Source: Hyphomicrobiales bacterium
GTDB lineage: Bacteria > Pseudomonadota > Alphaproteobacteria > Rhizobiales > Xanthobacteraceae
Direction of reading: 5' to 3'
NCBI GenBank assembly: GCA_021732215.1
Contig: JAKFVL010000001.1
Location: forward strand, 62,001 to 126,000
DNA: 64,000 nucleotides
In this document: piece after piece, positions 59,511 through 64,000 of the stretch
How positions within the stretch are numbered: position 1 is the stretch's first letter
How the letters are laid out: every line of letters starts with the position of its first letter
The notes under the pieces: generated by a model
The model's input: the letters and a program-made list of their open reading frames with translations, nothing else
What the model was told of the DNA's origin: nothing
Databases searched by the model: none
Made by a program: the position numbers and the translations under genes

Positions 59511-61282
<1,772 letters not shown>

Positions 61283-61380
61283 CAGCTTAAGTGTTTGCCG
61301 GGTCTTGCAGTCCTCTAAATCGCATCTTGAATGTAATGCAGGCGTGTTCGCATCTGCAGCGATCAAGTTGTCATCAGTAT

Positions 61381-61398
61381 TGTAAAGACTGTTTGACA
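61381..61398. promoter_or_regulatory. PpsR/CrtJ binding site (exact consensus)
   Basis: TGTAAAGACTGTTTGACA fits the TGT-N12-ACA consensus of the aerobic photosynthesis repressor PpsR/CrtJ exactly. It lies 99 nt upstream of the bchF start. Its right half includes TTGACA (61393-61398), usable as a -35 element for rightward transcription with a weak TGCGAT (61416-61421) 17 nt on. Confidence 0.75.
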
Positions 61399-61539
61399 GT
61401 CGCGCGGGGCGGTGATGCGATGGTGATGGGGAGCAAAGGGAAACAGGCGGCGATCTTTCACCGTGACCGGCCTGATTTTGATCTGCCAAAGCCCCGTACT
61501 GCACAGCCCAACTCCCTTTTGCGGGCTCTTATGAGAAGG

Positions 61540-61568
61540 AGGCTAATCTCGGTTCTGAGGACTGTCAA
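61540..61568 (-). promoter_or_regulatory. Possible bchF operon promoter overlapping a PpsR-like site
   Basis: On the minus strand, TTGACA (61568-61563) is followed after 17 nt by TAGCCT (61545-61540), matching the TAnnnT core of a -10 element. The -35 hexamer is the outer half of TGTCAATCTAACTATACG (61563-61580), a one-base deviation from the PpsR consensus. If used, the bchF leader is about 250 nt. Pattern match only. Confidence 0.4.
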
Positions 61569-61636
61569 TCTAACTATACGTAAATCAAACTTGACGGTCG
61601 CTATTGAGCAGGACTTAATGTTGGGGGGAAGAAAAA

Positions 61637-62554
61637 ATGCCCGATATAAACGAGCAATCATTTGCAGCCGGACCTGACGCGAACACCGCAAAAACAAGGC
61701 CTGCAAGACCTTGGCGAGATCGAATCGCGGCGCCTGTCTGGCGTTTCAAACCTGCGCTGCCGCCCGCAAACGTCGTGCGGGCGCTGAAAGCTGACATTAT
61801 CCCGAGAATTTTTCACGCCTTCCGGCCTGCGCCTCCGCAGCCCCCGAGTGCACCTGCTCCGGTCCAGGAGACGACCCAGGTTCAGGCGTTCGCGGCGCTC
61901 GTCCTTGGACACGATGACAAAGCCGCGTTTGTCTATGTGGAACAACTGCGCGCTCGAGGAGAATCGGTCGAATCCATCTTTCTTGATTTACTTGCACCGA
62001 CTGCACGCCGTCTCGGCGAACTCTGGGAAACAGATGAGTCCGACTTTGCGAGCGTGACGCTCGCCGTCGGGCGGCTGCAAAGCATACTGCGGCATCTGGG
62101 CGACGCTTTCGTACGCGAATCTTCTCCATATGAGTGCGGTGAATCGGCTTTGTTGACCGTCGTTCCCGGCGAACAGCACAGCTTCGGACTATCGATGGCG
62201 GCAGAGTTCTTCCGCCGTGCCGGCTGGAATCTTTGCACCGGTCCTTTTACGTCGCACCACGAGCTGACGTCCCTCGCCCAGAACCACTGGTTCGATATCG
62301 TCGGCTTCTCGGTGAGCAGCGACCGCCGCCTGGATGAACTCAAACGTGGAATTCAGGATATCCGCCGCGACTCCCGCAACAGACATATTGGAGTTATTCT
62401 TGGCGGTCCGATGATCATCGCGCATCCAGAACTTGTCGCTGCCATCGGAGCCGATATGATGTCTCCTGATGCAATAACCGCACCGCGAGAGGCGCACGAG
62501 CTGATCGAACGAATGACGGGCCGCGGTCGAAATCAGCAAGGTGGCGATCCCTAG
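61637..62554 (+). CDS. aerR: AerR/PpaA-type cobalamin-binding antirepressor
   Basis: This 305-residue protein has a Pro/Arg-rich N-terminal extension (about 1-78), a helical domain (about 80-165) with LGELWETD around Trp130, and a B12-binding Rossmann domain. His181 in PGEQHSFG is the E-x-H-x-x-G signature. AerR/PpaA proteins bind cobalamin and relieve PpsR/CrtJ repression of photosynthesis genes in response to light and redox. The ATG at 61637 has a good ribosome site (GGGGGGA, 7 nt before). It is divergent from bchF, and the heme oxygenase gene follows after 26 nt. PpsR itself is not in the window. Confidence 0.88.
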   Translation: MPDINEQSFAAGPDANTAKTRPARPWRDRIAAPVWRFKPALPPANVVRALKADIIPRIFHAFRPAPPQPPSAPAPVQETTQVQAFAALVLGHDDKAAFVYVEQLRARGESVESIFLDLLAPTARRLGELWETDESDFASVTLAVGRLQSILRHLGDAFVRESSPYECGESALLTVVPGEQHSFGLSMAAEFFRRAGWNLCTGPFTSHHELTSLAQNHWFDIVGFSVSSDRRLDELKRGIQDIRRDSRNRHIGVILGGPMIIAHPELVAAIGADMMSPDAITAPREAHELIERMTGRGRNQQGGDP

Positions 62555-62580
62555 TGCGGGGTTAGCCTGGGGAAGAATAA

Positions 62581-63269
62581 TGAACGTCGCGGTAGTCGAC
62601 CAATCGCCTCCCGCCGGAGTCGTGACCGATCTCTACGTCCGCACCAAGACTCTTCACCTCGAGGCAGAGCGTTCGGGCATCGTCAACGATATCCTGCGCG
62701 GACAGGCGAGCCGCGAAGGCTACACGCTTTTCCTGAGAAACCTGCTGCCGGCCTACCATGCGCTGGAAAGCGCTCTTGAGCGGCTGAGCGATTCTCTCAT
62801 CTTGTCGGCTTTGTCGAACTACAAGCTGGACCGAGCACCCGCGATCGAGAAAGATCTACTGGCGCTGTCCGGGCCGGATTGGGCCAATCAGATTCCCCTC
62901 CTCCCGGAAGGAAAATCGTATCAACAGCGCATTGCCCTTGCCGCCGGCGAGGATGATGGCGAGCGATTGATTGCTCATGCCTATACCCGCTATCTCGGCG
63001 ATCTCAGCGGCGGTTTGATCATGAAACGATTGCTTGCTCGTTCGCTGGCACTGAGCCAAGAGCAACTCGCGTTCTACGATTTTGCGGGATTTTCGGATCT
63101 GGCTGCGCTGAAAAGGGATTACCGGAGCGCGCTCGACCGGGCCGGCGCCGCGGCTTCAATTCCAGCCGCCATCGTCGAAGAAGGCGCGATCGCCTTTGCT
63201 CTCAATATCGATCTGTCGCTGGCGGTGCAAAGAAGTCTGCAAAAATCAGCGGTAGGCGCGCAGCAATAA
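62581..63269 (+). CDS. hmuO: Heme oxygenase (biliverdin-producing)
   Basis: This 229-residue helical protein of the heme oxygenase family has the proximal heme ligand His26 in LHLEAE and the distal glycine-rich helix in YTRYLGDLSGGLIMK. It opens heme to biliverdin, the bacteriophytochrome chromophore. It follows aerR after 26 nt (ribosome site GGGGAAG) and converges on the bacteriophytochrome gene. The 3' end carries an 18-bp tandem duplication across the stop codon. A role in iron acquisition is less likely in this context. Confidence 0.92.
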
Positions 63270-63295
63270 GGCCCTTGGCAGCAATAAGGCCCCTC
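63260..63295. repeat. 18-bp tandem duplication at the hmuO stop
   Basis: Units 63260-63277 and 63278-63295 both begin GCAGCAATAAGGCCC and differ at two of eighteen positions. The first unit contains the hmuO stop (TAA, 63267-63269); the second holds a copy of the stop. Confidence 0.85.
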
Positions 63296-63310
63296 AAAGT
63301 CAGAATGCGA

Positions 63311-64000
63311 TCAGTTGCTGCCGTTTCCGGACGTGCGCGACGAATGCCAGATCAGATGTTCAAGAACCTCAGCCGTTCGTAACGTTGAATTGCGGACGCT
63401 TTCGAGCATTTCGGCAATCCTGCCAGTCTCTACACCGTAAGTGATTTCGAGCGCCGCAAGCTGCGCGTTCTCGACGACCGACGACAACAAGTTCTGATAG
63501 ACAAGATCGGCCTTGGAATCGAGACGAACCCCGGTGACACGGTGACTCTCGATGATGCCTTCCTGAAAGCGGCTGCGTGCCGCGTCCGCGGCCTTGCGAT
63601 CGGTCAGATCCGTGAAAATCAGCACGAAGCCAAGCACGCGATCGCGCGAAGGTTGAACCGGATCGGCCCGCAGCAGCAACGGCTTTTCCCGATTGCCTTC
63701 ACTCAGCAACATCACCTCACCCCGCCACGGCCTGCGATTGTCGAGAAGCTCGGCAATATTGGCCGTGAACTTTTCCGGCTGTTGAAACACCGCCGAAAGA
63801 TCGGAGAGACAATTCTGCCTTGTGCCAGTAGCGGGAAGAAAGGCCTGAAAGGCCTCATTCATAAGCAGAATTTTGCCTGCGGTATCCGCAATGATGACCG
63901 GCTGATCGGAAATCCTCACGTGCCGGCTGAACTGTTCCAGTTGATCCTGCGCGATGAGCGTACGAACAGCGCGGAATTGCAGAACGATGTCAGAAACAGA
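63311..64000 (-). CDS. bphP: Bacteriophytochrome, C-terminal part (runs off the window)
   Basis: The frame is open from the window edge, giving 229 residues plus stop. The first part, SDIVLQFRAVRTLIAQDQLEQ, looks like the end of the PHY-domain signalling helix. A PAS domain follows (about 28-135: VIIADTAGKILLMNEAFQ, then LGFVLIFTDLTDRKAA), and then a helical tail (VYQNLLSSVVENAQLAALEI, VRNSTLRTAEVLEHLIW). There is no HATPase domain or kinase H-box, so this is a PAS-helix output like that of Rhodopseudomonas BphP1 and photosynthetic Bradyrhizobium BphP, which antagonise PpsR under far-red light. A GTG at 63919 is only internal. The chromophore-binding half lies beyond the window. Confidence 0.82.
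   Translation of the reverse strand, partial: SVSDIVLQFRAVRTLIAQDQLEQFSRHVRISDQPVIIADTAGKILLMNEAFQAFLPATGTRQNCLSDLSAVFQQPEKFTANIAELLDNRRPWRGEVMLLSEGNREKPLLLRADPVQPSRDRVLGFVLIFTDLTDRKAADAARSRFQEGIIESHRVTGVRLDSKADLVYQNLLSSVVENAQLAALEITYGVETGRIAEMLESVRNSTLRTAEVLEHLIWHSSRTSGNGSN

Follow-up and report, generated by a model that had tools for sequence, protein, structure and literature searches.

A putative PpsR-controlled bchF/aerR promoter region and an inversion-derived aerR-hmuO pair facing a bacteriophytochrome gene in a PGC2-type photosynthesis cluster

The window analysed here, by which we mean the whole stretch of 64,000 nucleotides, is taken from contig 4 of a 4.2-Mb genome, where it spans bases 62001-126000. 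Its right end carries bchN to bchF on the minus strand, aerR and hmuO on the plus strand, and the 3' end of bphP on the minus strand. A sequence-only reading of this stretch had proposed that a B12 antirepressor, biliverdin synthesis and a bacteriophytochrome are joined here under PpsR control, and had suggested reading the genes past position 64000; doing so recovered ppsR2, ppsR1 and the remaining part of bphP, with the order beyond bphP being ppsR2, cycA, tspO, bchP, an MFS gene, bchG, ppsR1 and pufML (coordinates in this extended sequence, L002, plus 60000 give window coordinates). An Rfam scan of the whole window returned no matches. The features of the region are as follows.

60797-61504, minus strand: bchF (PF07284, TIGR02020), heading bchFNBHLM
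61381-61398, no strand assigned: exact PpsR box TGTAAAGACTGTTTGACA, in bchF codons 36-42, exact in 21 of 22 loci
61540-61568, minus strand: putative bchF promoter TTGACA-N17-TAGCCT, hexamers kept in the alignment
61563-61580, no strand assigned: left promoter-proximal PpsR-like box TGTCAATCTAACTATACG, conserved, holding the putative bchF -35 element
61579-61596, no strand assigned: right promoter-proximal PpsR-like box CGTAAATCAAACTTGACG, a genome motif match, holding the putative aerR -35 element
61591-61619, plus strand: putative aerR(-hmuO) promoter TTGACG-N17-CTTAAT, as read from the sequence
61637-62554, plus strand: aerR/ppaA (PF02607, PF02310; GEQH(181)SFG; match to 7te2)
62555-62579, plus strand: aerR-hmuO gap of 25 nt with Shine-Dalgarno sequence GGGGAAG
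62580-63269, plus strand: hmuO, heme oxygenase (PF01126)
63311-64000, minus strand: 3' part of bphP, type 3, RpBphP1-like (complete gene from 63311 to ~65554 in the genome)

The earlier suggestion that an exact PpsR box serves as operator of the aerR promoter is only partly upheld: a conserved box of the PpsR/CrtJ operator form TGTN12ACA does exist, but it is intragenic, lying within bchF some 240 nt upstream of aerR. The bchF start (GTG 61504, with a Shine-Dalgarno sequence) is kept in 22/22 loci and precedes a 75-codon N-terminal tail ahead of the catalytic domain; from the start to that domain every gap run in the alignment is a multiple of three (55/55), and on the non-coding side of the start the runs are mostly 1, 2 and 4, from which it follows that the exact box falls in bchF codons 36-42. 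The same observations rule out a location upstream of a shorter bchF. Conservation of the box for the sake of its peptide is likewise ruled out, by the invariance of its synonymous sites (TCA, CTT, TAC). As the TGTN12ACA form occurs in the window no more often than expected by chance (9 found, 5.7 expected from shuffles), the weight of this box derives from its conservation: of 211 six-codon windows in bchF, the one containing it ranks lowest both in synonymous difference (0.038 against a median of 0.416) and in third-position divergence (0.044 against a median of 0.44). Judged from these comparisons, the exact box is under selection at the DNA level, within a protein tail whose remaining sequence is hardly constrained. 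The same tail contains another invariant DNA block, GGTGATGCGAT, at 61400-61425, ~10 nt beyond the box; its synonymous sites are conserved as well (TCG at codon 29 is invariant), and it is not a PpsR half-site. In one Rhodopseudomonas genome (G088) and in R. faecalis (L055) the box inside bchF has degenerated to CGTAAAGTTTGTTTGACA.

PpsR-type boxes are nevertheless present at the aerR promoter itself, although the two found there are non-exact. The true bchF-aerR spacer measures 132 nt, and its conserved core, ACTGTCAATCTAACTATACGTAAATCAAACTTGACG, includes two 18-mers of PpsR-box geometry, TGTCAATCTAACTATACG and CGTAAATCAAACTTGACG, which overlap by two bases and read TGTN12ACG and CGTN12ACG, so that one or both outer half-sites deviate; degenerate TGa and cGT half-sites have been described in Rubrivivax (PMC4452267). 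The left box covers TTGACA of the putative bchF promoter and the right box TTGACG of the putative aerR promoter, and because both putative -35 elements are covered, occupation by PpsR would block both promoters. The putative aerR -10 element would imply a very short leader of ~11 nt, which we count against our preferred reading. The right box and the box inside bchF occur together in 22/22 loci, spaced 184-198 nt apart; sites in R. capsulatus are 76-240 bp apart (PMC4452267), and LAerR stretches the contact of CrtJ across several hundred bp (PMC6199135).

A strict motif, YGTMAAN6TTKACR, which was drawn up after the alignment had been inspected, is matched at five sites of the genome (61381, 61579, the ppsR2-cycA spacer at 67019, and two unrelated places), three of which fall in this regulatory region, and occurs in shuffled sequence about 0.01 times per 64 kb. 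Support for the motif comes from sites outside its design set, namely those of the ppsR2-cycA spacer, of Bradyrhizobium loci of the PGC1 type and of Pseudorhodoplanes, all of which carry boxes. In 10 of 13 PGC1 genomes the tandem appears as TGTCAATCAAAATTGACG and CGTCAAATAATATTGACG, or near variants, 16 nt apart; the left-box site fits the strict motif in 10/13, the bchF box is found in all 13, and Pseudorhodoplanes carries the right-hand box together with the one in bchF. Binding of PpsR at these boxes is what we infer from their form and conservation, and some of them may have been noticed earlier in the literature on PpsR sites in Bradyrhizobium or R. palustris. At the bchF/ppaA region of D. 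shibae there are four PpsR sites, and mutating two of them derepresses bchF (PMC10890935).

The product of aerR belongs to the B12-binding antirepressor family: it matches PF02607 and PF02310, contains the lower-ligand His motif GEQH(181)SFG, and has AerR 7te2 as its best PDB match (E=2.3e-17). Among the 12 AerRs that were aligned, a set without the N-terminus of LAerR, no His is conserved over the first 80 residues. Several Rhodopseudomonas-group genomes contain second, distant AerR-like proteins with 28-33% identity (L128-L137), the genes for which sit away from the photosynthesis cluster. HmuO matches PF01126 (E=2.7e-49), and its proximal His (H26) and distal GDxSGG motif (G140-D141..G144-G145) are invariant. 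The hmuO frame starts at ATG 62580, preceded by GGGGAAG and in a position that agrees with relatives, and stops at 63269; an alternative start, GTG 62541, would overlap aerR. The two genes do stand close together, as claimed previously, with a gap of 25 nt (62555-62579) in place of the 26 nt first given. They share a strand, the gap contains no convincing promoter or terminator, and a search of the window for a promoter belonging to hmuO yielded a single weak match, within aerR and at chance level. In all PGC2 loci the gap is 25-79 nt long and free of intervening genes, and a single aerR-hmuO transcript is plausible on this arrangement.

The stop codon of bphP (63311) lies 41 nt past that of hmuO, the two genes converge, and no terminator was found between them. 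Complete bphP extends on the minus strand to ~65554 and encodes 747 aa. The earlier reading would have been undermined by a BphP without a chromophore cysteine or a PAS-GAF-PHY core; both are present, the cysteine lying within DLSNCEREEIHLAGSIQPHG and aligning to C20 of RpBphP1, and the match to the RpBphP1 crystal sequence (4gw9) covering residues 13-657 with E=0. The non-kinase output proposed for the protein also agrees with what we find, a C-terminal PAS match and no Pfam histidine-kinase domain, and by sequence BphP would be a type-3, RpBphP1-like phytochrome of the PAS9-HOS type. Directly upstream lies ppsR2 (a match to the PpsR equivalog); if bphP starts at its ATG, the two genes share 68 nt, and a TTG immediately after the ppsR2 stop corresponds to the start of RpBphP1.

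PpsR2 (L002:5490-6857) contains no cysteine, and PpsR1 (L002:11927-13525) a single one, located outside the C-terminal HTH; given this cysteine content, a CrtJ-like redox switch through an HTH cysteine looks absent from both. The PpsR2 of wild R. palustris lacks the HTH cysteine, and far-red light is described as the sole signal to which it responds (PMC6899989); a passage in PMC10734443 cites Bradyrhizobium PpsR2 as constitutively expressed, which weighs against our preferred reading. The ppsR2-cycA spacer contains a PpsR-type box, CGTCAAACAGGCTTTACA, at 67019-67036 (L002:7019-7036), whose position is kept in 19/19 loci compared, and close to the start of cycA there are two further TGTN12ACA boxes that overlap (L002:7135, 7141). 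PpsR itself may control the ppsR2-bphP transcript or cycA.

HmuO requires O2. The genome encodes one PF01126 protein, the product of hmuO, and one BphP at E<=1e-40. Among 149 genomes of the family, hmuO is present in 16/16 that have a type-3 BphP and in 7/133 of the others (Fisher p=2e-16, in a test that treats species as independent, which they are not), and BphP occurs in 22/23 of the hmuO-bearing genomes in this sample. One large genus, taken as Bradyrhizobium because a locus of it (L156) agrees in gene coordinates and contig number with a named Bradyrhizobium locus (L031), was covered by 265 genomes; aerR and hmuO are found in the same 26 of them, and hmuO occurs there only alongside the photosynthesis cluster. 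G088, a Rhodopseudomonas genome (L117, L146) that lacks bphP and ppsR2, retains a short remnant of hmuO behind an intact aerR. These three lines of evidence (one of each protein, their co-occurrence, and the remnant in a bphP-less genome) agree with the proposal that HmuO supplies the BphP chromophore, and its dedication to BphP as a source of biliverdin is well supported, if not proven, by gene content. R. faecalis (L055), in which bphP-ppsR2 are likewise not adjacent, has an intact hmuO frame, and this counts against our main reading. Near relatives of hmuO occur in Tardiphaga and other Bradyrhizobiaceae (L032, L033, L036-L039, L041, L046), in neighbourhoods without aerR, type-3 bphP or ppsR2.

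The position of hmuO behind aerR is best understood by comparison with other gene orders. Rhodoplanes (L143) shows the order bchF<, aerR>, ppsR1>, MFS>, bchP>, ppsR2>, bphP>, hmuO<, pufM<, and the corresponding order of the window is bchF<, aerR>, hmuO>, bphP<, ppsR2<, bchP<, MFS<, bchG<, ppsR1<, pufM<. The two are interconverted by one inversion of ~11 kb with breakpoints at aerR/ppsR1 and hmuO/pufM; on gene order, it is a single inversion that turns aerR-ppsR1 and pufM-hmuO into aerR-hmuO and pufM-ppsR1. Within Bradyrhizobium, pufM-hmuO and aerR-ppsR1 are found in 13/13 PGC1 genomes (for 12 of them the short flank that was read shows bphP facing hmuO), and aerR-hmuO facing bphP in 13/13 PGC2 genomes, counts that overstate the number of independent events since the loci are related. 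We infer that the PGC2 order is derived, the direction being taken from the wider spread of aerR-ppsR. The operators, being present in both PGC1 and PGC2, predate the inversion. No PpsR box was detected in 11 of 12 ancestral pufM-hmuO gaps scanned, the sole match being a GC-rich TGTN12ACA in L076. A published account of the PGC1/PGC2 inversion lists bphP, ppsR2, cycA, bchP, MFS, bchG and ppsR1 in the inverted block, and a search of its text gave no hit for aerR, ppaA or heme oxygenase (PMC10569730); the present comparison assigns hmuO to the block and resolves the breakpoints to aerR/ppsR1 and hmuO/pufM. Since hmuO follows pufM in PGC1 and aerR in PGC2, its placement links it to bphP and the transcripts of the photosystem, and not specifically to the B12 antirepressor. 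In both states hmuO stands close behind a photosystem gene and faces bphP, pairing with aerR being one of the two.

This history bears directly on the idea that the aerR transcript acquired hmuO as a means of coupling B12/blue-light with far-red input, with strong biliverdin feedback. The PpsR-type boxes at the aerR promoter and the maintenance of the aerR-hmuO linkage across PGC2 genomes speak for it, yet PGC1 sisters with the same promoter have ppsR1 behind aerR and hmuO behind pufM, and as they do without the pairing, it must be dispensable for BphP function. This weakens the notion that B12 and far-red signals were brought together here by design, and we consider the full model rather doubtful; joint tuning by B12 and far-red light is not needed to explain the locus. 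Conversely, the inversion may have brought hmuO behind aerR by chance, with hmuO expressed from its own promoter independently of PpsR and AerR. That the pairing is a breakpoint product fits such an explanation, as does an element in most Rhodopseudomonas loci (L048-L061), CTCTGCTATAAGG or a near variant, which lies just past the aerR stop in gaps of 59-68 nt and resembles an extended -10; the conserved TGCTATAAG there could be a separate, lineage-specific hmuO promoter. However, this element is absent from the 25-nt gap of the window, where the only nearby promoter match is at chance level, and all PGC2 loci keep the gap short and free of other genes, so that we judge adjacency without shared control unlikely.

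A role for HmuO in heme-iron turnover, with its orientation towards bphP a matter of history only, would accord with the relatives in Tardiphaga and other Bradyrhizobiaceae that lack aerR, type-3 bphP and ppsR2 nearby, and with the retention of hmuO in R. faecalis without adjacent bphP-ppsR2. Against this stand the presence of BphP in nearly all hmuO-bearing genomes of the family sample, the restriction of hmuO to genomes with a photosynthesis cluster in the Bradyrhizobium sample, and its reduction to a remnant in G088, and we regard this role as very improbable. The reading we prefer, and hold to be probable, is that the locus is a regulatory hinge of a PGC2 photosynthesis cluster, in which a PpsR-controlled bchF/aerR promoter region also drives a co-transcribed hmuO, the product of which makes biliverdin for the facing BphP, in an arrangement derived by inversion.

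Under the preferred reading, PpsR would bind the two overlapping boxes over both -35 elements and repress bchFNBHLM and aerR-hmuO, assisted by the third box ~193 nt away inside bchF, probably through cooperative or looped binding. Lying 25 nt behind aerR, hmuO would be read on the aerR transcript, and HmuO would provide biliverdin for the single RpBphP1-type BphP. Far-red-lit BphP would relieve repression by PpsR2, as AerR would also relieve PpsR repression, and derepression of the photosystem would then yield more chromophore, a mild positive feedback. The sequence itself establishes the gene content, the conservation of the boxes and the place of one of them within bchF, the inversion and the co-occurrence of hmuO with bphP; PpsR binding, looping, co-transcription and a biliverdin feedback loop would be plausible. 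More tentatively, and short of an even chance, a three-site PpsR/AerR operator, with one site in bchF under DNA-level selection, might switch the bacteriochlorophyll operon and, since the inversion, biliverdin synthesis, such that far-red relief of PpsR2 would boost the chromophore of its own sensor, with PGC1 wiring the same feedback via the puf transcript.

Several elements of this arrangement are familiar from other systems. Rhodopseudomonas and PGC2 Bradyrhizobium loci have the same genes in the order bchF<, aerR>, hmuO>, bphP<, ppsR2<, and the window BphP appears to be of the same PAS9-HOS type as those of the RpBphP1/PpsR2 system of R. palustris and the BrBphP/PpsR1/PpsR2 system of Bradyrhizobium, a type that binds PpsR2 in far-red light (PMC6899989). 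In comparison with those systems, the present genome has only one BphP and one heme oxygenase, and a shorter aerR-hmuO gap. D. shibae likewise has divergent bchF and aerR/ppaA, several PpsR sites and a covered bchF promoter (PMC10890935), whereas the window has a box in the bchF coding region, two overlapping promoter-proximal boxes, and hmuO rather than ppsR behind aerR. With aerR-crtJ of R. capsulatus (PMC5362033, PMC6199135) the locus shares a protein of the AerR family in which the lower-ligand His for B12 is present, and CrtJ/PpsR sites that can be far apart, but ppsR1 no longer follows aerR, and for His10, the N-terminal ligand of LAerR, no conserved equivalent is apparent among the 12 aligned AerRs. 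The inverted block, from bphP to ppsR1, is that of the Bradyrhizobium PGC1/PGC2 inversion (PMC10569730). A heme oxygenase gene also adjoins the phytochrome gene in bphO-bphP pairs elsewhere; unlike in those pairs, the genes of the window are convergent and the oxygenase gene stands behind that of a photosystem regulator.

An odd gene order is thus accounted for by the breakpoints of an inversion already known, in which hmuO and ppsR1 exchanged places behind aerR and pufM, and candidate operator sites can be named precisely at which far-red light, B12 and PpsR could meet at one promoter. Moreover, as two natural cluster types within one genus place the chromophore enzyme on different transcripts, the idea of feedback becomes testable by comparison.
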